Part shown: positions 30,970-48,923 of the stretch, piece by piece
How the letters are laid out: every line of letters begins with the position of its first letter
How positions within the stretch are numbered: position 1 is the first letter of the stretch
Origin: Aphelidium insulamus
Taxonomy: Eukaryota > Aphelidiomycota > Aphelidea > Aphelidiaceae
Direction: 5' to 3'
Assembly (NCBI GenBank): GCA_036784855.1
Contig: JAZDSV010000012.1
Coordinates: 1 to 64,000, forward strand
DNA: 64,000 nucleotides
Program-made: the position numbers and the translations under genes
The notes under the pieces: model-generated
Told to the model about the DNA's origin: nothing
What the model saw: only the letters and a program-made list of their open reading frames with translations
The model's database searches: none

Positions 30970-31863
30970 ATGCGCCATTTTGACGCGATTCTCGGCGCCG
31001 CGCTCGCGGTGGTGCTGTGCCAGTGCTGGTCTCCACTCGTCTCCGCTAGAGCTCCAGCGAATAATGAAAACCTCCTCACTCGTGTGGTGCACCACGACCC
31101 GATGAATGCCGAAAAATTGGGCGAACAGGTCGTGAACCTTTTCGCGGAAGGCCACCAGGGAGCGAACGGCTTGCCATGCTTTACGCGCGAACAACTCGCC
31201 AAGCACATGCAGGCGGCGAACGAGGCAAAGTACATTCCGGCCGTGGGTCCGGATAAGGCGAATTTTGACGCCATGGACGACGACAAGGACGGATGCGTGA
31301 CGAAAACCGAATTGGCAGAATACTATGTGGCGATGTCAAAGACGGACCAGAATCTGCTGGCCAAAATCGGAGAGGAAGCCAAGAAGCAATTTCCTGATTT
31401 CGACGCGAAAACAGCTTCAACAAACCTGGCCGAGCAAATTCGTAATCAAAATTGCGCCAACAGCACCGAGCCAAAGCCGAAAATAACGGCCGGCACAGTT
31501 GCTTCATGCGCCGCGCATTTTGGCGACTGCGCTCTGTTTAAAGGATGTGGCGGGTCCGCGGCACCGGCGACTGGAACCAGCGTTGACGTGCACAAGCGCG
31601 GTTTTGGAAATATGATCGTGAAGACCGTCAAAACCATCATGGTAAGCATGATGATGATATTGTACATTGTATGCACGGCTAACTGGCAGGCTATCGGTTT
31701 CTTTGCCGTTGCTTTCATTCTTGCTCTTATCTCGATAAGCGCCATTTTTGGCTTTTCGATGCTCGGAGGCGCGGCTGGAGGGACGCTTAGTGGCATTGTG
31801 GCGGCTCCCGTTTTAATCGTTGCCTTCATCCTTTTTTTTGTGGGGTTGGCCCTCGTAAAATGA
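30970..31863 (+). CDS. Secreted EF-hand protein with C-terminal membrane segments
   Basis: A single exon codes 297 residues. A signal peptide (AILGAALAVVLCQCWSPLVSA) is followed by a helical region with one canonical EF-hand loop (DDDKDGCVTKTE) near residue 100. Next come a KIGEEAKKQFPDFDAKTAST-type helix, a Cys-containing region (NQNCANS, SCAAHFGDCALFKGC), and a C-terminal third with at least two or three hydrophobic segments (FFAVAFILALISISAIFGF, VAAPVLIVAFILFFVGLAL). I do not know this family. A diverged paralogue, broken by LTR elements, lies at 39889-46704 and shares the DPM, NG.xC, FPxF and KC/NC landmarks and the hydrophobic end, but not the EF-hand loop. A calcium-binding surface protein is a reasonable guess. 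Confidence 0.7.
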   Translation: MRHFDAILGAALAVVLCQCWSPLVSARAPANNENLLTRVVHHDPMNAEKLGEQVVNLFAEGHQGANGLPCFTREQLAKHMQAANEAKYIPAVGPDKANFDAMDDDKDGCVTKTELAEYYVAMSKTDQNLLAKIGEEAKKQFPDFDAKTASTNLAEQIRNQNCANSTEPKPKITAGTVASCAAHFGDCALFKGCGGSAAPATGTSVDVHKRGFGNMIVKTVKTIMVSMMMILYIVCTANWQAIGFFAVAFILALISISAIFGFSMLGGAAGGTLSGIVAAPVLIVAFILFFVGLALVK

Positions 31864-37262: not shown

Positions 37263-37783
37263 TGTGTATGTGTGGCAGTTGATTACTGCTCTGGTGCTGC
37301 ACACACAATGCAGATCTTGTTATCGTAATCTTTCGTGACACCCTGCAGCGCTGCTGTCATTTCGTGTCGTTTATGTCAGACGCGACCTTATTCGTTTTAA
37401 GGCTTGTTGGGCTGTAATAAGTAGAATGCCTTTGATTATGGATATATTACTGCCAGGTCAAGTATCGCCTGCCGCGCGGCTATGCCACCCTGCTCATGTG
37501 CCACAATAAATGATAGTCGCTGCCACACTCGCTGATTACTGACAGAAGTTGAGAGGTTGTCCACGTCAGACAACGGAAATGGTTCGAGTAATAAACGCCC
37601 CCAGAGATTCGATAATGAAAGGGAGAAAATCGACCCGACATTCAAAGCCATTCTCCCATCCGTGCCGACATTCAAAGCCATTCTCCCATCCGTGCCTCAT
37701 TGCTGCCAGGAATGATGTGCAGCGCAACATGGCAAAAAGTAGACAGTACATTGCAGCTGTAGCAAATTGAAGCAAAACAAAAA
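37263..37783. other. Intergenic region between AROM and tRNA-Ala
   Basis: This stretch holds the AROM promoter. It also holds a perfect 30-bp tandem duplication (37636-37665 and 37666-37695). Two overlapping minus-strand frames run through the duplication; one reads LSDVDNLSTSVSNQRVWQRL further on and could be a gene relic. Nothing in it is recognisable. Confidence 0.5.
37636..37695. repeat. Perfect 30-bp tandem duplication
   Basis: Two identical adjacent 30-bp units start with cgacattcaaagcc and end with tcccatccgtgc. On the minus strand, in one frame, this duplicates a ten-residue block. Confidence 0.95.
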
Positions 37784-37856
37784 TGGAGGTCCAGGGTATC
37801 GATCCCTGTACTTCTCGCATGCGAAGCGAGCGCTCTACCATTTGAGCTAGACCCCC
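37784..37856 (-). tRNA. tRNA-Ala (anticodon CGC)
   Basis: The minus strand folds into a 73-nt cloverleaf. The acceptor stem GGGGGTC pairs with GACCTCC with one G-U; the D arm is GCTC/GAGC; the anticodon stem CTCGC/GCGAG has loop TTCGCAT, giving anticodon CGC. The T arm CAGGG/CCCTG has loop ATCGATA, and the discriminator base is A. The GGGATCGATACCC T arm is the form found in animal tRNA-Ala. No intron is present. A TTTTT tract follows directly on the minus strand and would serve as the RNA polymerase III terminator. Confidence 0.96.
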
Positions 37857-37985
37857 ACTGAGTCGTTAGCTCGGTTTTCTCATTAATGTTTAACTTTACC
37901 TAGTATGAAGATGTTAAATACACGTCGTTGATATTAACGTAATATCGTAATGCATGCACACCATTAAACTCACGCAAGCAATTGA

Positions 37986-39384
37986 ATGGTGCACTTGAGC
38001 CACACCGAGTACAGCCACTCGAAGTCGGCAGCTAGTGGCACGGCTACATCTACAGCTACTAAAGCCATCACAACCAGCGATGACGCCGTGACCACCAATA
38101 CATTGCCGCCCATACCAGCCGTCCTGCTGTCTGGACCGTGCAGCATGGGCATCGACGAGGCTGGCCGTGGTCCCGTTCTGGGTAAGCATCTGATATGGAA
38201 TCTCTACAACTAACTCCACACAACTATAACTAACTAAATATGTCAGGTCCAATGACATATGCGGCCGCAATTTGTCCGCTGGGCCGACAGCAAGAGCTGC
38301 GACAGTTGGGCATTGACGGTGCGCACTGGCTACTATGATGTCTCATTGGATCACAATGCACTACACGCGCAGACTCGAAAAAGATTACTGAGGCCGCGCG
38401 GGAGCGCATGCTCACCCGGGACATGATGGTCACATGCGCAGACTGGCTCACGTGGACAGTGCGGGTGCTGATGCCGCGCGATATATCACGGGCAATGCTG
38501 CGGCGGTTGGTTGCGCTAAATCACTCTCGGATGACGTCTGATACTTACATCTATGTCGGGCAGAGACAAGTACAACCTGAACACGCTGTCACACGACACC
38601 GCCATCGAGTTGGTCAGGGATGCGCTGCGTCGGGGAATCCGTGTCACGGAGGTTGCATTGTGCGCAATGTGTGGTAGTTGCTGAATGATTCTACTGTAGC
38701 TTTACGTCGACACTGTCGGTTCGCCCGAAAAATATCAGGCAATGTTGTCGCGCCTGTTCCCCGGCATAAAGTGCGTCGTGTCCAAGGGCGCCGACCACTT
38801 GTTTCCCATTGTGTCAGCGGCTTCAATCGCCGCCAAGGTGAGCATAGTGTTTAGCGGTTTATTACGGCATGTGTGACTATGCGATTATGTAGGTCAAGAG
38901 AGATGCAGTGCTGCGCGACTGGAAGTTTCATGAGCCGGGAATGGAGAATATTAACCGCGAGTTTGGTTCTGGCTATCCTGGCGGTGCGCCCAGTTGTGTG
39001 ACATATGTGTAAGAGTGACGTATATAATCACAGACCCAACCACAAAACGCTGGCTACGGGACAATATTGATCCCGTGTTTGGGTTCCCAGAGATTATTCG
39101 TTTCAGTTGGTCCACGTGCTCCACTCTGCTAGAAGAAGAAGCAGTGCCGGTGCTGTGGTATGTTTGCGATAGTAATGAGAATAGTTGCTAATTGTATGTA
39201 TTGTAGGCCAGAGTACGATGATGATGCGGATGGTGGTGGCAAGTATGGCAAGCAGGCTCAGAAGTCGGGTAGCAGTAAGCGGCAGCGGTTGGACGGCGCA
39301 AGCCGTCAATCAGCATCCGCCTCACTGCCCAGGAAGCACGCCTTCTTCAAGCAACTGCAAATGCGGATTGTTGTCGACCTTTGA
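37986..39384 (+). CDS. RNASEH2A: Ribonuclease H2 catalytic subunit A
   Basis: RNASEH2A is the catalytic subunit of the heterotrimeric RNase H2, which removes ribonucleotides from DNA and degrades RNA-DNA hybrids in the nucleus. About eight exons give some 340 residues. Landmarks are [12 protein letters not shown] with the first catalytic Asp/Glu, [24 protein letters not shown], KADxLFP-type [27 protein letters not shown] and [14 protein letters not shown]. All junctions are GT-AG and keep frame. A variable Ser/Lys/Arg-rich insert (about residues 290-325) precedes the last helix. The N-terminus extends about 40 residues beyond the first motif and is Thr/Ser-rich. The gene is divergent from tRNA-Ala and the minus-strand AROM. 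Confidence 0.9.
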
Positions 39385-39888
39385 GTGGGCATATAATGCT
39401 AGTTTTTGCGTCAATTTCTGTTCATTATTGTATTGTGTTAATTCAACACTTGTTTTCTTGTATTTTGTATGCGATACATTGCGCATATGACATCATTGTG
39501 CAACATTGACTAGCGAATAGCGCATTGGCCGGCTACTTTATCAATTGATCATGGAATTTAATAATTGATGAATTGATTGTGCTGAAGACCGAAAGCGTGG
39601 TCGTTACGCTGCTCAATGTCGGCAAGCTGGCGTCGATTTTCTTCCTTTCATTTTGGACTCATTTGGTGGTTTTGGGGCTTTGACCAAGTTGATGACTCTA
39701 GCGTCATGCCACGCTGCTGCTCCCAGGTCCAACATAGCGGTCTGCAAAAGTTTCGCCGGTTACGGACACGCTGGTTCGTGGCCGCTATGAAGGCAACCGC
39801 CAGAAGCTTGCCTTGAGCGATGTGGAGGCAACAATTTCATTATCCATAATAAACCCCCACAATGATGATTGATTGTGCTGATCATAAA
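39385..39888. other. Intergenic region between RNASEH2A and a disrupted gene
   Basis: This AT-rich spacer lies between convergent ends. A plus-strand frame at 39616-39816 shows no recognisable features. No repeat or RNA gene is apparent. Confidence 0.5.
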
Positions 39889-40041
39889 TTATTGGCCCTC
39901 CAGCGCCAGGTAAAAGAGCGAGCTGCCAATCCAGGCAACACCGCCAAGTATCGCCAGGGGGGATGCGGCTGCCAAAATAAGGACAACTTTACCAAACTGA
40001 AAAAGTCTCACTACTACGAGGAGGAGAGCTTGTAGTACCAC

Positions 40042-40719
40042 TGTAACAAGGGCCAGGGGCTCCTTGTGCCGTTGGTACCCGGTACAGAGTAGAGGCGAGC
40101 AGAGTGAGATCACGAACCTTGTGCCGTTGGTACCCGGTACAGAGTAGAGGCGAGCAGAGTGAGATCACGAACCTTGTGCCGTTGGTACCCGGTACAGAGT
40201 AGAGGCGAGCAGAGTGAGATCACGAACCTGTGACGTGTCAGATGGACACAGTCTGACCGCCACGGGCGGACCTTGTGCCGTTGGTACCGGTACAGAGTAG
40301 AGGCTAGCAGAGTGAGATCACTGAACCTATAGGCTCAGCAGTTGATAATGAACGTATTTATTATATACCTGTGACCCGGTACAGAGTTGATGCGGGCAGA
40401 GTGAGATCACGAACCTTGTGCCGTTGGTACCCGGTACAGAGTAGAGGCGAGCAGAGTGAGATCACGAACCTATAGGCTCAGTAGTTGATAATGAACGTAG
40501 ATCAACTGCTGGTCTTTCTCGACTCAATGTCAGTATGTATGGCCAATACTGGCGTCCGACGCCTCCCAGGGTTGGTGTCCAACCGCCTCTGGCTGAGCGC
40601 TTTCCGGTTGCCAATCCGCGGTTACCGGCGCGACGAAAGATTCCCGAACTGTCGGTACCGGATGAGTCATAATGACGTCATCGGCGCTAAGCTGACACGG
40701 AGTACAGCTCCGTGTTACA
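40042..40719 (-). mobile_element. Solo LTR of a Ty3/gypsy-like element
   Basis: A 678-bp insert has short inverted ends (TGTAACA at 40042, TGTTACA at 40719) and is flanked on both sides by the 5-bp duplication ACCAC (40037-40041 and 40720-40724). It codes no protein. Inside are about six copies of a unit of about 55 bp (cttgtgccgttggtaccc to gagatcacgaac), alternating with an AT-rich segment (cagttgataatgaacg, tattatatac). The LTR of the nearby full-length element has the same plan. It interrupts the last coding exon of the host gene. Confidence 0.88.
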
Positions 40720-41426
40720 ACCACACTTACAACACTTGCTCCAATCTACTAGACGTAAGTACCAATTAACAACACCAATTTTAACTTTACCGCCACTGTT
40801 GTCCTTAAAACTCCTGTTAAGCTTCGCTTTCGCACACTTACTTTTGATTTACCTTTGGAACCTTTGTTGTTGGTGCAGTCCAGCACTTCTGTGACACAAT
40901 CTTTAACATGACAATCCTGTTGTAAAGTATCAACGTCCACAGTTTGCTGTGCAACCTGAGAACTTCCGCACTTGGCTTTGCGAAGAGATCGAACTAGATT
41001 AGTAAAAGCTCCCTTGAAGTTAAACTTTGGGAAGGCTTTCGTGATCTTTTCTGCTAAATCGCGCGTCTTGACGGACTTGAACTTCTTTGTCAGCTGCTCT
41101 CCCGTGAGGCATTGGTTGGCCAGCTTATCATTCACACCTTCTGGGGGAATCATTCCCTCCTGACGCGCCGCATCAATGTGGGGTTTGGTGGACAGACAAA
41201 GAACACCGTTTTGGTTGCGTTTGCCTCCTCCGGCACGTTCAATCAGGGCATGTTTGGCTTTTGACATGGGGTCCATTCCATCGGGAGATTTTAAACTGCG
41301 GGACGCGTCCGTGCTTCTGGAAGCACCGCGGCCCTTTGGTCGCCAAGTGAGTGAAAACGCTGCTTTAACATCCATAGGACAGCACATCAAAATCAAGCAA
41401 GCACATGCTAGGAACCCCACAATGGC

Positions 41427-41827
41427 TATAGCAAAGGCCGTAGGCACTTTGCGACGAAGTCAGCGGGTGAGCGGAGGGGTAGCACGTGCGAACCGACCTT
41501 TGCGACGAAGTCAGCGGGTGAGCGGAGGGGTAGCACGTGCGAACCGACCTGCAGACAACGTTGAATAATACTTTATTAATGTTGCAATGTTATACCTTTG
41601 CGACGAAGTCAGCGAGTTTGAGCGGAGGGGTAGCACGTGCGAACCGACCTGCAGACAACGTTGAATAATATAGGTTGACTGCAGGTTTGTCGTGGGAACC
41701 GTAGCTACTTATACCCGCCTGACACAGGTCGCTAACACGCCTCATACCAGAACGCCCCACGCCACACCAGGGTTGCAGTTGGCTGGCACTGTGTGGGAAT
41801 CGGCGACTGACAGTTGGAACTGTTACA
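41427..41827 (-). repeat. 3' LTR of the chromovirus
   Basis: This 401-bp LTR lies downstream of the integrase. The element-sense ends are TGTAACAG and, at the other end, GGCCTTTGCTATA, where the solo LTR has GGCCCTTGTTACA; the last bases have therefore probably mutated from the usual CA. It contains about three copies of a unit of about 50 bp (tttgcgacgaagtcagcgg to gcgaaccgacc) and two of an AT-rich segment. Confidence 0.88.
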
Positions 41828-44800
41828 CTCCCGGGCAAAATTGAGCGACTGTAGTTGAGTTCGTGAGATGCAAGATAGTCGTGCGAGGATTTGATTACAA
41901 TGCGTCAAATTGCGTTCTGGCTCATAGGTGTTGTGCTCATTGCCATACCCACGCCACTTGACCAAAATTGCCGCTGGCGTCGGTGCATCGCGGTGACCAA
42001 CAATGCCCTCAACTTCAAATTCTGCAACTCCATCAATCAGATCCGGCGGGAGTTCGGCATGTGGAGTATTGGCAGGCGGTATGTAGGGGGTAATCAAGCC
42101 AATGTGGAACGTCGGATGGATCGTCAGAGTTGGTGGGAGTGCAAGTGTCACATTGAGGCGATCAATAGCTGTTACAGAAAAGGGACCAAATCGACGAGGG
42201 CGCAATTTCCGGACAGGAGATGAGCGAAATATGGACCAGTTGCGTAACGCAGAAGCATCAAGCAGCACCTTGTCCCCAACTTGCAGGTTGGGGGCCGGGA
42301 GACGTTTGACATCGGCGTAGTATTTCTGGTCCTGTGCTACCAGTGTCAATTTATCTACAATCAAGGCCGAAGTAGCCGCCTGTGCACTGGCTAGCTCTTC
42401 AACTGCAGGTGCGGATGATGGTGAGGCATGCAGCTTTAGCATGTTGGGATGGCGACCCAAGTCAGCAAAGAAAGGCGTGAGGCCAGTAGAAGTATTGACT
42501 GAATCGTTGTAGGCCATGCAGACGTCTGGCAGCAGTGTTTCCCAGTTGCCATGGTTGAAATCGACATAATGGCGTAAGATTTCTTTAACTGAACGTACAC
42601 CGCGCTCAGCCTGGCCGTCAGTCTGCTGGTGATTTGCAGTTGACATGTTCAGCGTAACGCCCCATCGACGCATCAACTGTTGCCAATAATGCGACGTAAA
42701 ACGTGGGTCGCGGTCCGAGACACCAGACGTGGGAAGCCCTTGTGTTGGATGACGTGAACTTTCAGGAGCTGAGCGACGTCCTTCGCCGTTGCACTGCCAT
42801 TGCAAGGGATCAGTACAATAGATTTGGTATGGCGACAGACCACAATCATGATCATGTCATGGTCATTGCGTGTAGGTGGCAAATCGGGCATGAAGTCAAT
42901 AGCAATGTCCGACCAACGGTGAAGGGCAATGGGCAATGGCTGCAAGAAGCCGTGCGGCGGATGATTACTGTCCTTCACACGTTGACAGGAGTCACACGAT
43001 CGACAATAGTGACTGATGTAACGGTTCATATTGTTCCAAATGTACTTGCGACGGACAAGTTCCAAAGTTTTGTCGATGCCGAAATGGCCAGCGTGGTCAT
43101 GCTCATCGCGGAGGACAGCTTGGAGAACCGCCGGCGCTTTAGGTAGGAGAAGCCGCTCGTGCGTGCCGTCTGGCTGAAAATAGAGCAGGCCGTCACGCAA
43201 AACAAATGGCCGCTGAGGATTAGTTAGCAGTCGTAAACATCGGCCATCGGTCTGGTAGCCGGCCAGAACTAGGCGGAGGAAAAGCGGAATGTTCAGCGGA
43301 ATGTGTCCCAGTAGAATCAGACAAGCTCAACAGACGCCACCAGTGGTGCGGTGTCTCCGTGGAATGAGGAGTGAGGTCGACTGCATTGGAGGGAACGGTA
43401 ACAGGTGCGTGGTTGATTTTGGACAACGCGTCGGCCACAACATTCTGATCGCGCGGTATGTGCTTGATGTCAAATTGGAAGCTCTGGATTTCGGCAAGCC
43501 AGCGGATTTGGCACTTGCTGAGATTTTCATTCGAATGGAGGGTTTGCAGCGAGATGTTGTCCGTATACACATAGAAGCGAGCAACATCAAGGTAATGACG
43601 CCATTTCTTTAAGGCATGAACCAGAGCGGCGTTCTCTACTTCATGAACCGGATAGTTGCGTTCAGCCGAGTTCAGCTTTCGGGATTCAAAGCGACGGGGT
43701 GGAGATGGCCGAGGGCATCTTCTTGACACAACACGGCGCCAATAGCGACGACCAAAGATGCATCAAAAAAAATGATGAACGGCTTGTTCCGGTCGGGAGG
43801 CTGCAGCACTGGTGCACTGGTGAGCCGCGACTTCAGTTGTTCGAAAGCAACGTTAGCTTCGTCCGACCAATGCCACGGCACGTCTTTACCCGTAAGAGCA
43901 GTCAGTGGCGCAGCCAAATGGGAATACTGATCAATGAAACGGCGATAATAGTTGGCCAGACCCAAAAATGAACGTAGGTCCGTCTGGTCAGTTGGGTGTC
44001 GGCCAGTCACGGACAACATCGACTTTGGCATCATCAACCGCGATTCCTTGACCTGAAACCGTGTGACCGAGGAATTTCGTCTGACAGCGTCCAAATTCGC
44101 ACTTTTCGGTCTCAGCGTACAGCTTGTGCTGGCGTAGCAGCAAAAAAACTTTACGCAGCAATGTAAGGTGTTCTGCCGGCGTCTTCGAGTATATCAAAAT
44201 GTCGTCGAGATACACAACCACACCTTGGTCGAGGAGCGGCTGAAATACCTGATTCATGAGGCGCTGAAACGTAGCAGGACCGGACGTCAATCCAAACGGC
44301 ACAACCAGATATTCAAAATGGCCATACTTGGTTTGGAAGGCCGTCTTGTGTACGTCCTCCTCTTTGATACGTATCTGGTGAAAGCCAGACACCAGATCCA
44401 ACTTAGAAAAAATTTTCGCGCCTGCAAGCTGGTCCAAACAGTCATCGGCACGTGGCATCCCGTACCGATCCTTCATGGTGATATTGTTCAATGCGCGGTA
44501 ATCGACGCACAGACGTAAACCGCGGTTATTGGGCTTTTGCACAAACAGTACGGGCGCTCCGTAGCTGCTCGTAGACGGACGGATCCAACCGCGGTCAAGC
44601 AGTTTCTTCAACTGTGCCTTCAATTCGTCTGACTCGGCAAAACTGAGGCGATAGAGGCGTTGCGCCGGCGTTTTGGCATTTTCAATCAATGGAATGGCAT
44701 GATCGACGGAGCGGCGCGGGGGCAGACTGTCCGGCGGCCTGGCAAGTACATCCGAAAACTCGGTGAGTACCTGCTGGAGACCCGTCAACGGAACAGCATG

Positions 44801-45661
44801 CTCGCGGTCATCTCGGTATAATTCTTTCAGGTGAATGGCAAAGACGGGTGCGTCGGTCTTTGCCGCAGCTTTGACGAAAGCATTCAATTCCATCACTTGA
44901 CACTCAATCGCGCGGCCCACTCGCGGATTAATAGCCTTCAAACAAATCTGTCGGCCGTGACGATCGAAACGCAGCTCATTCTCACGCCAGTCAACGTCCG
45001 GATTGACCGTGGTGAACCACGCCTTGCTCAGTATACAATCGAGGCCGTCGTGCAAGTCGATCACTACAAATGGCAAAAAATCGTCGTACTCTCCCACCGT
45101 GATACTCAGCATGACGGCGCCGTGGCTCTCACACGTCGCCCCGTTTGGCAACCGTACGCCGCGTCCATTGCCTTCCGTGGGTGTGATGGCTAGCGCCATG
45201 CGCTGCACCAGCGACTTTGACACGAAGTTGTGTGTGGCGCCGGGGTCAAAGAGAAAGGCGGCGCGGTGGCCATTCACTTGGCCGACCTTGCGCAGTAGGT
45301 TGTGCTCATTTTGTAGTGCATTTGACAGGTATGCAGACGACGCTCTATTGGCACGGGCAATAGCAAACCGGCACGCGGAATCTCCGCTGCGGTGCCCAGG
45401 TTGGCGACAAGACAGGCACAAACCATTGCGAAGGCAACGGTCACGCTCGGCCTGTGTCAACCGTGGAGGGTATTCGGGCAAAATGGAGGCGGAGAACGTA
45501 GAAGCACTCAAATCCATGGGTACGGCCTCATCGCGAGGTCGAAGCGGCGGAGGCGGAAGCGGGCTGAAGCGTGAACGATTATAACCGGGCATTGAGCGAC
45601 GGGCACTAGTGTTGAACTGTGCTTGCTGCTTGTTAGCATCATAACGCGCCGCCTTGGCCAT
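41732..45661 (-). pseudogene. Degenerate chromovirus pol (PR-RT-RH-IN-chromodomain)
   Basis: The reading is split over several frames. 45661-43988 carries a zinc knuckle (CLSCRQPGHRSG), a retropepsin-like site with DPGATHNF where D(S/T)GA is usual, and reverse transcriptase with YLDD. A shifted frame continues with the RT thumb and the start of RNase H ([23 protein letters not shown]). 43729-43220 carries the rest of RNase H (YTDNISLQTL). 43200-42673 carries the integrase zinc-binding HHCC region and the start of the DDE core. A frameshift near 42730 leads to SDRDPRFTSHYWQQL, the integrase C-terminus and a chromodomain (EFEVEGIVGHRD, ILVKWRGYGNEHNTYEP). At least three frame breaks are needed to connect these domains, so it is not functional as read. 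Confidence 0.88.
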
Positions 45662-45697
45662 AGCTTGCTCATAATTTCAGGTTCGAGTCCGGTAACA

Positions 45698-46276
45698 TCA
45701 CATCTGCATATCAAATGGCAGGCCGCGAATGTAATGTTCCAGCTTGGCCTCCGGGTACATGCGTTCGATGCGCGATAGTAACCCACGGAATTCGGTGTTG
45801 TATGCACCAAGCGACCCGAGCTTGTCCAACTGAATAGAGGTAATCGCAGTACGTGCATTGGTTTCATCCTGTGCTGGGTAGAACTCCTGGCGGAATGAGT
45901 CTTCAAACAGCGTCCACGTGGTTGGTGGCTCCTCAAGGGCACACCACCAAGCATCTGCCGTTTCATGCAAACGGTGCGTAGCTACCGCGATCTTGTGCGC
46001 ATCTTCCGTGATGCCATATGTATCAAACGCGGTTTTGCAAGTGTTGATAAATTTGCGAATTTTGTCGACGCGTAACTCTCCGTGGTATTCGGGAACAACA
46101 TTACCACGAATCAATTGCTGCATGCCGCGGCGAGACAATTCATTGGCATTAGGTGGTTGCTGCATTGCCGCCTGCAGCGTAGCTTGCAGTGTGTTGTTGT
46201 GGATGGTGAGAGCCTTCACTGCAACCACCGTTTCATTCAGCACTTTTTCAAAGTGCTCCTTCTCAGCGGCATCCAT
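45698..46276 (-). CDS. Chromovirus gag (capsid) fragment
   Basis: The 192-codon frame starts at the ATG at 46276, about 18 nt inside the 5' LTR. It has a coiled-coil-like start and a Ty3-type capsid core (FEDSFRQEFYPAQDETNART, LGAYNTEFRGLLSRI, YIRGLPFDMQ). It ends in a TGA. The continuation of gag, through YEQAMAKAARYDANK to the zinc knuckle, is in another frame, so the capsid is cut from its nucleocapsid part by a lesion around 45660-45700. In intact relatives gag and pol are usually one frame or one frameshift apart. Confidence 0.8.
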   Translation of the reverse strand: MDAAEKEHFEKVLNETVVAVKALTIHNNTLQATLQAAMQQPPNANELSRRGMQQLIRGNVVPEYHGELRVDKIRKFINTCKTAFDTYGITEDAHKIAVATHRLHETADAWWCALEEPPTTWTLFEDSFRQEFYPAQDETNARTAITSIQLDKLGSLGAYNTEFRGLLSRIERMYPEAKLEHYIRGLPFDMQM

Positions 46277-46294
46277 GTCTAAAGAGTCAACCTA

Positions 46295-46684
46295 TATAGC
46301 AAAGGCCGTAGGCACTTTGCGACAAGGTTCAGCGGGTGAGCGGAGGTAGCACGTCACCGAACGTTGTGCGACGGTCAGCGGGTGATGGAGGGTAGCACGT
46401 GCGAACCGACCTGCAGACAACGTTGAATAATACTTTATTAATGTTGCAATGTTATACCTTTGCGACGAAGTCAGCGGGTGAGCGGAGGGGTAGCACGTGC
46501 GAACCGACCTGCAGACAACGTTGAATAATATAGGTTGACTGCAGGTTTGTCGTGGGAACCGTGCTACTTATACCCGCCTGACACAGTCACAATACGCCTC
46601 ATACCAGAACGCCCCACGCCACACCAGGGTTGCAGTTGGCTGGCACTGTGTGGGAATCGGCGACTGACAGTTGGAACTGTTACA
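46295..46684 (-). repeat. 5' LTR of the chromovirus
   Basis: This 390-bp LTR is the partner of 41427-41827. The two differ by scattered substitutions and several small indels, mostly in the tandem-unit region (46319-46410). The other half, from the AT-rich segment to the TGTTACA end, is nearly identical. The divergence shows the insertion is not brand new, unless the indels are assembly errors. Confidence 0.88.
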
Positions 46685-46704
46685 ATGGCGAAGCGAACAT
46701 TCAT

Positions 46705-47283
46705 CTTCTGTGCATATGTATGTTAATGTATTTACATCTTTACAGAATGCTCAAAACCATTTGCTTACCTCCAGCAACGAGTAAAGCAAAAAGAATAGCT
46801 TAAACGAACGTATTACGCTGAAACATGATGAAACACGCTGTGGAACAACATGCGTATATCCTGATTGGCCGTGGACTACGTTTCTTTTACTCCGCGGTAT
46901 GTCATGTGCTTCAATTTCTTACCCGCTAGGGACGCATCAATTATGAAGGATGTAACGCGTTAAGAAGGTCGCTAAAAAGTGAAACTCACGAAAAAGATGG
47001 TGAGGTCAAATACAGCACTGAAATTATGCGCCGATCCTAAAGTATATTGAAGACATCCTGAAGCGATAGTGCTATGTTGGAAATGCAGGATCAATGGCTA
47101 AGTCACAGCATCGTTCTGGCATACATTGCAACTATATGTATGGTATGCGGTTGTGTCTTAATCAATAGAGAAGAATCTACGTGTTCATATTTTTCTATTT
47201 ATCGGGTATCCACGAGATATCCAACAGTCATTCAAGTACGATAATGTAATGCGATAAATATGTAGTCAAATCTATAGTGCACT
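46705..47283. other. Upstream region of the disrupted gene
   Basis: About 580 AT-rich bases contain the presumed promoter and 5' UTR of the LTR-interrupted gene and the 3' end of the SQS1-like gene. No coding frame, RNA gene or repeat is evident. Confidence 0.5.
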
Positions 47284-48923
47284 TCAATTGTAGCCAAGAC
47301 CACGACCGGCACGCGGAATAACAGCCTCGATGGGAACCTTGATGGCCGAATCGCGGGATGTATCTCCAATGGCATCACCGGGCCGCCAACCCATTCGCAT
47401 CAGCAATTTATGGCCGACATTACTTTCGCCAATTGGAGCCGCTCCGTGACCCACCACACTGCCGGCCGCCATTGCGTTTGAGCGGCCACCAGCGTCGCGC
47501 AGTCCCGACCGTGCAGAGTTGCCGGCTCCGTTGCGACGGTTCTCTCGCGCAGCTTTCCGCCTCTCACGGCTGTTTGCATGTTTTTTCTTGTCTCCTTTCC
47601 CATCTCTGCCTTTCTTGCCGGCCTTGTCGGAAGGCTTTGTTGACAGCCGCACATTGGCCATCTTGGCTGACGGCCAGTATATGAATCCTATTCTCACGGC
47701 ATTGCCATATGATGACGACACTGATGATTGCTTCTGCTTCTGCTTGTATCGCTGCTTCTGTCTGCCGGAGGCGAGCGGAATCATGTCCGCGGAATCCGAT
47801 GCCCGCAGCAACTCGGCCTCTACCTGCTCGCACCACGCAAACGACTGGTCCATCTTTTCCGACAACCTCACCTGTGTACAATCAATATAAATTATGTCTT
47901 CATTAATTCATGTTATACCCTCTCTGGAGTGCCCAGTGCGGGAAAACAAGAGCCACGAGTCTTCTCCAACATTATGTACCGCCTAGTTCCACTGCCATGC
48001 GACACGGATTTCAGACGGTAGTCGGAGCAGAAAGCGTGGATACGGCGACGCAGGAAATTTGGGAGAGGCGGCAGTGCAAGTCTACATAGATAATGTTGGC
48101 AAACGAATAATAACAGGGCATAACATAATCAAACTAACTGGCTGACAGAAGGGTCTTCAAGAAAGCCGCACAGCTTCAAGTGCAGCTGTGCATAGTCCAC
48201 AAATGGCAGACGCGGCATTTCCTCAGCGCGAGACTTTGATTTGCCTGAAGTATAAGTGGTGGCGGCAATGCGAGGATTCTTGGCCAACTCGCGGTTCAAG
48301 ACCGCCATTATATCACCATGGTTATCGCCGTCAGTTCCACCGTCGGGAATGTCGATGCGGCTCAAGCGCCGTCCAATACTGCCCTCCACTTCGCTGTCGT
48401 CGTCGTCGTCATCATCAAAGTCGGCAAAAATCTCGTCGGGATAGTTGGCGTCCAGAGAGCTACCATCGCCGTCCGTCTCGTCACCGTCGGTACTATCGTC
48501 ACTGCCTGAAAAGTCATCGCTGACATCAAAGTCGTCGTCGTCGTCGTCATCCGAGGAGACGGTATCGTTCAGGCGCGGCACATCTGACGCCGCCAGACTC
48601 AGCACCTGGTCATTCATCCAGCCCACATCCTGCTCATCCCACGGCAGCTCTGGTTCAGCGTATACGGCACCACCACCGCCACCACCCCAGCCTGTGGTCG
48701 GCTGTGTTGGCGGCTGTTTAAATGTGCCGGCCACGTGCGTGAAGCGTCCATACGGCTTCCGCTTCTTGTTACGTCGCGATGAATTGCCACCGCCCGCACT
48801 CCGCCGTGCATCACCACCACTACCGTCACCGCCACCAGGCTTGGCGGCCAGTGTGCCCAAATAGCGTGCCAGAAACGGCGGCTCGCTCGTCTCGGTGCAG
48901 TCGGGCGGATCATTGCCGGGCAT
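47284..48923 (-). CDS. SQS1: SQS1-like R3H and G-patch protein
   Basis: Three exons give about 520 residues. The N-terminal half is Gly/Ser-rich and then strongly acidic (runs of Asp near residues 130-190). The middle exon carries an R3H domain (LPNFLRRRIHAFCSDYRLKS, then KTRGSCFP). After a basic KKG/KRDG region, the C-terminus ends in a G-patch (GESNVGHKLLMRMGWRPGDA to AGRGLGYN). Acidic region, R3H and C-terminal G-patch in this order match yeast SQS1/PFA1, an activator of the DEAH helicase PRP43 in ribosome biogenesis and splicing. Open sequence upstream of 48923 (IAVNYHTQIDTIPTLK, in frame, after an acceptor at about 48972) suggests that an extra 5' exon with an ATG near 49045 may exist. 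Confidence 0.8.

Follow-up and report, generated by a model that had tools for sequence, protein, structure and literature searches.

A probably single orphan gene of Aphelidium insulamus with insertions of two related self-priming chromovirus families

The analysed window, a 64,000-nucleotide stretch of DNA, represents positions 1-64000 of one contig in the Aphelidium insulamus assembly, which comprises 17.95 Mb in 169 contigs. An AROM-type shikimate gene and a gene for a Ras exchange factor lie nearby. Since an IFT46 domain is encoded in the genome, the host is probably a flagellum-building eukaryote. Within the window, a minus-strand host gene is interrupted next to its start codon by a nearly full-length LTR retrotransposon (family A) and, according to the gene model discussed below, again near its 3' end by a solo LTR of another family (family B). 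The components of the locus, listed in the direction of the gene, are as follows.

46690..46704, minus strand: 5' stub of the host gene, its first 15 bases, with the ATG at 46704, upstream of the element
46685..46689: right copy of the target duplication ATGGC, flanking the family A element
41427..46684, minus strand: family A chromovirus, 5258 bp, in the same orientation as the host gene, defined by LTR ends and Pfam
46295..46684, minus strand: 5' LTR of family A, 390 bp; in sense numbering, TATAAG at 113, predicted RNA start and self-primer at 145, AATAAA at 246
46285..46297, minus strand: primer binding site ATATAGGTTGACT, spanning the LTR edge and complementary to LTR sense 145-157
45698..46291, minus strand: Gag piece (Ty3_capsid, Retrotrans_gag)
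43988..45676, minus strand: protease and reverse transcriptase frame (open reading frame and Pfam)
43220..43762, minus strand: RNase H piece, in another frame
42673..43326, minus strand: integrase zinc-binding piece, in another frame
41732..42856, minus strand: integrase C-terminal piece with SH3_Tf2-1 and chromodomain (open reading frame and Pfam)
41427..41827, minus strand: 3' LTR of family A, 401 bp
41422..41426: left copy of ATGGC, flanking the family A element
40791..41426, minus strand: host exon, 636 bp, stop-free, with the remainder of a hydrophobic signal-like N-terminus and the protein body
40746..40790, minus strand: predicted 45-nt intron GTAAAG...TAG, read by eye; the exon upstream ends in phase 0
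40720..40745, minus strand: start of the predicted last exon, ending in the target duplication ACCAC
40720..40724: right copy of ACCAC, flanking the solo LTR
40042..40719, minus strand: solo LTR of family B, 678 bp, from a second, related chromovirus family
40037..40041: left copy of ACCAC, flanking the solo LTR
39889..40036, minus strand: remainder of the predicted last exon, with a hydrophobic tail and the stop at 39889

The original prediction described a minus-strand gene cut by a 5.26-kb chromovirus with the duplication ATGGC, and this description was borne out, the insertion point lying 20 bp past the ATG start with the five duplicated bases included. Having a Ty3/gypsy reverse transcriptase, RNase H, integrase and a C-terminal chromodomain, the family A element is a chromovirus, and its best solved relative is Ty3. 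Pfam models for the capsid, protease, reverse transcriptase, RNase H, integrase zinc-binding domain, SH3_Tf2-1 and Chromo matched the window copy; the integrase core domain went unmatched there and was matched in a second family A copy on contig C87 and in a family B relative on contig C2. The Pol frames of the window copy are interrupted in several places. Its C87 sister, 98.6% identical over the inner part, retains 1364 codons in one frame and the chromodomain in the next, and an unbroken frame through the chromodomain was found in neither of the two nearly full family A copies examined (window and C87). The protease-reverse transcriptase frame matched 1548 proteins at E 1e-10 among 7979 scored; the closest named protein among the 120 matches listed is a hypothetical one from the green alga Closterium, which aligns to 40% of the query at 55% identity and 721 bits. 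A search of plasmid records with the reverse transcriptase yielded only three weak or partial matches.

The 678-bp solo LTR proposed between ACCAC duplications was likewise recovered, with exact ends. Solo LTRs arise by LTR-LTR recombination, and known examples consist of a complete LTR within a target duplication and lack an inner region; the window copy agrees with them without notable difference, its sequence being that of the LTRs of a full element with the inner region absent. Family B LTRs flank an element on C2 that carries the same kinds of domains as family A and shares with it 70% identity over 1664 pol columns and 65% over another 1211. The coding frames of this C2 copy follow the LTR and set the sense of the solo LTR, which is that of the host gene, so that both elements are oriented as the gene, as had been predicted. 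Several further solo LTRs are present in the genome.

Spanning the edge of the family A 5' LTR, 13 bases are reverse-complementary to LTR sense 145-157. The self-primer at 145-157 starts 32 nt downstream of the first base of TATAAG, the motif from which the RNA start was predicted. In the predicted fold of the RNA 5' region, the self-primer pairs with the primer binding site in both the minimum free energy and the centroid structures (z -3.0, matched by one of 200 shuffled sequences). A primer binding site complementary to the RNA 5' end is a mark of the Tf1/sushi group, and family A has one with respect to its predicted RNA. For family B, a self-primer of 10 nt was found in three of four distinct copies (C143, C152 and C105; absent in C2), the sample comprising six loci, two of which are the C152 and C2 copies seen again in cut-off form. 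A 5-bp target duplication is typical of the Tf1/sushi group and was measured in the window as well, and Tf1 has a single Gag-Pol frame. In Tj1, according to passages of PMC4600332, a stop lies between gag and pol. A chromodomain integrase and self-priming from the RNA's own 5' end are described as common features of the Tf1/sushi group and Tj1 in passages of PMC10085805 and PMC4600332; family A is like the group (Tf1, Tf2, Tj1, Tosmo) in both respects, a likeness of features. Differences were also noted. According to a figure legend of PMC10085805, the 5' LTR of the elements treated there always ends in CA, whereas the family A LTR has the form TG...TA and that of family B TG...CA; the statement concerns the elements of that legend, and the CA ending may not define the group. 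The family A LTR also differs from the group by short tandem repeats. Finally, the insertion here lies inside a gene, whereas passages of PMC4600332 give pol II promoters as the sites of Tf1 and Tf2, and the DNA upstream of pol III genes as that of Tj1. Short tandem repeats occur in the LTRs of both families (window 41447-41650 and 40062-40471), and their number seems to vary between copies.

The 636-bp host exon is open within a listed reading frame at 40749-41459. Simulations with a Markov-1 model produced a stop-free frame of this length, in any of six frames, in 17 of 5000 cases. The codon score of the exon is the top one of its six frames but weak, at 0.063 bits per codon; for scale, the eight genes used for training reach 0.129-0.357 when scored on themselves, and in a downstream control (39200-39880) the best frame attains 0.056 despite 13 stops. 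Both the codon score and the simulation were run on 40786-41421, which is displaced by five bases from the final exon. The search of the genome for uninterrupted homologues, which had been recommended with the prediction, revealed an unbroken paralogue in the window.

30970-31863, plus strand: unbroken paralogue with a hydrophobic N-terminus, a sub-threshold EF-hand-like loop and a hydrophobic tail

This gene lies on the opposite strand, 9 kb from the host gene (E 3e-6; 25% BLASTP identity over 197 columns), has a codon score of 0.191, and holds the hydrophobic N-terminus, body and hydrophobic tail in one frame. It supports the body of the host gene as judged from sequence, but its tail lends no sequence support to the tail of the host gene. 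A third, weaker family member was found on contig C106 (1300-1850 of locus L065, E 0.002). By eye, the C106 member apparently needs a frame change ahead of its tail; together with the paralogue at 30970-31863 it points to a small family characterized by an EF-hand-like loop and by hydrophobicity at the N-terminus and in the tail. The product of the host gene is probably secreted or membrane-anchored and has a probable signal-like N-terminus. Searching the assembly with 40720-41425 returned a single match, the locus itself, and thus no empty allele. In the protein collection, no homologue at E 0.1 or better was obtained for the host exon (485 candidates) or for the paralogue (scored against the 8000 candidates with the most words in common); not even the paralogue came back from the search, which indicates that the host's proteins are probably absent from this collection. 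Pfam gave nothing for the host exon at E 10 and only below-cut-off matches for the paralogue, EF-hands first.

The continuous host frame claimed from the ATG at 46704 to the stop at 39889 agrees with the coordinate arithmetic, for which the separate pieces were left unjoined: the exon in phase 0, the 45-nt GT...AG intron (40790-40746) and the frame from 40745 are consistent through to 39889. A 53-nt intron at the AROM junction, also read by eye, provides a size comparison. The last exon is nevertheless the least secure part of the gene model, being predicted from the intron, the open frame and hydrophobicity. The exon's own frame reaches the stop at 40749 before the solo LTR, and in alignment the tail resembles that of the paralogue no more than composition gives (1207 of 2000 shuffles at least as good), both of which are in keeping with a gene broken only by the chromovirus, the solo LTR falling in 3' flanking DNA and the tail at 39889-40036 outside the gene. 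Against this, the phase-0 intron leads into a frame that, by arithmetic, stays open across the insertion, and the tail is strongly hydrophobic, like the paralogue tail, with a codon score of 0.253 that is the best of its six frames, albeit with an antisense frame reaching 0.227. We regard a gene broken by the chromovirus alone as rather unlikely. A single gene model spanning the solo LTR is probably correct, and the claim of one gene struck twice stands in a qualified form, with two LTR families and very probably one gene.

The preferred explanation, which we hold to be probable, is that the gene of an orphan, probably secreted or membrane-anchored protein was struck by two LTR retrotransposons, each from one of two related, self-priming families of chromoviruses. 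Our confidence in it is fairly high rather than high, because the codon score of the exon barely exceeds that of the downstream control. The family B element would later have recombined between its LTRs, leaving the solo LTR near the 3' end of the gene, while the family A element would remain nearly full length just past the ATG. A transcript from the gene's own promoter would enter the 5' LTR in sense, the host frame would end after 46 codons, and the AATAAA of the 5' LTR would terminate the RNA. The host gene is thus, on sequence grounds, probably a knock-out. The locus is a natural and clean disruption of a gene from an orphan family of membrane proteins, and two self-priming chromovirus families are hereby documented in a genome of small size with a gene for a flagellar protein.

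The two family A LTRs differ by 20 substitutions in 389 positions and 7 gap openings, strongly clustered and with many of the differences adjoining gaps; in the U3 part there are 5 differences in 165 positions, of which one is unclustered. Against the C87 sister, the window copy shows 40 mismatches and 16 gap openings in 4475 columns. Tight clusters of differences between the LTRs (41427-41827 versus 46295-46684) form a pattern expected of local sequence error or conversion. The clustered, often gapped LTR differences and the ratio of gap openings to mismatches against the sister could also be read as signs of assembly or consensus error, with the junctions or the broken Pol frames being partly repeat artefacts. 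Against this, each insertion is flanked by an exact duplication and, by arithmetic, the host frame runs on across the two; we consider such artefacts very improbable. The LTR pair and the 98.6% identical sister suggest that the element is young, in a relative sense rather than as a clocked date. The original prediction took the stop-free 636-bp exon to mean that the gene was intact until recently or that the insertion is polymorphic. The exon is indeed free of stops, but judged from the LTR divergence, with substitutions only and coordinates shifted by five bases from the final exon, it should have received 0.08-0.70 nonsense changes since the insertion; the probability of none is 0.92-0.50, which makes the argument for recency a weak one. 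Indels at half the C87 gap-opening rate would by arithmetic add about one more disabling change in 636 bp; for this reason the open exon offers some evidence of recency, though not a strong one, and we take it as mild evidence of youth at most.

The proposal of a permissive or targeted site was examined through further copies of both families in the genome. With insertions paired by eye and the window included, exact 5-bp target duplications flank five of six family A and seven of ten family B insertions; one of the seven (C105) has ends 1.8 kb apart, and one more family B duplication agrees at 4 of 5 letters. One family A and two family B paired insertions have no duplication. The twelve exact duplications, the window's two among them, are twelve different words without a common motif, which leaves targeting by sequence unsupported, whereas a regional preference is possible and unproven. 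A family B copy lies within 10 kb of family A at four of seven loci, compared with a uniform expectation of 0.024 per locus (P 1.1e-5); the figure is three of six without the window locus (P 2.7e-4) and two of five when C105 is also left out (P 0.0056). This sample consists of seven contigs with family A LTRs, where the two family A insertions of C87 count as one, and of 22 places with family B, with pol fragments lacking LTRs left out, close matches merged by eye and the underlying searches giving lower bounds. In addition, at C109:72608-73336 (609-1337 of locus L059) a family B LTR contains one of family A, which has a 5-bp duplication of its own.

Such proximity above uniform expectation, and the nested pair on C109, would fit a region or site that attracts chromoviruses, e.g., through silent chromatin read by the integrase chromodomain, the double insertion then being no coincidence. 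However, the sample is small and the loci and the 10-kb cut were chosen post hoc by the analyst; selection against genic insertions would cluster the survivors too; the duplications lack a common motif; and the window itself shows two insertions only (18 frames and the paralogue were scanned with Pfam, of 70 open reading frames of at least 150 amino acids). Attraction is therefore a possibility that we doubt, and the double insertion is a familiar kind of event with no clear special target. More speculatively still, the two self-priming families might seek the same neighbourhoods, perhaps via a chromodomain reading marks on earlier insertions, and the gene might represent an island of this kind in its early stage; if so, a gene struck once becomes likelier to be struck again. 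Should the co-location hold, the genome could be used to ask whether existing insertions draw in new ones.

A tRNA-Ala gene was predicted, using bacterial settings, at 37783-37857 of the window. Targeting of tRNA genes as in Tj1 was rejected, this sole predicted tRNA gene of the window lying more than 2 kb from the solo LTR. An Rfam scan of 38000-48500 at gathering scores returned nothing. Six frames flanking insertions were compared with Pfam (C12 twice, C109, C87, C160 and C113): four gave nothing, one next to the family B insertion of C12 has ankyrin repeats, and one next to the nested pair of C109 has a MULE transposase.
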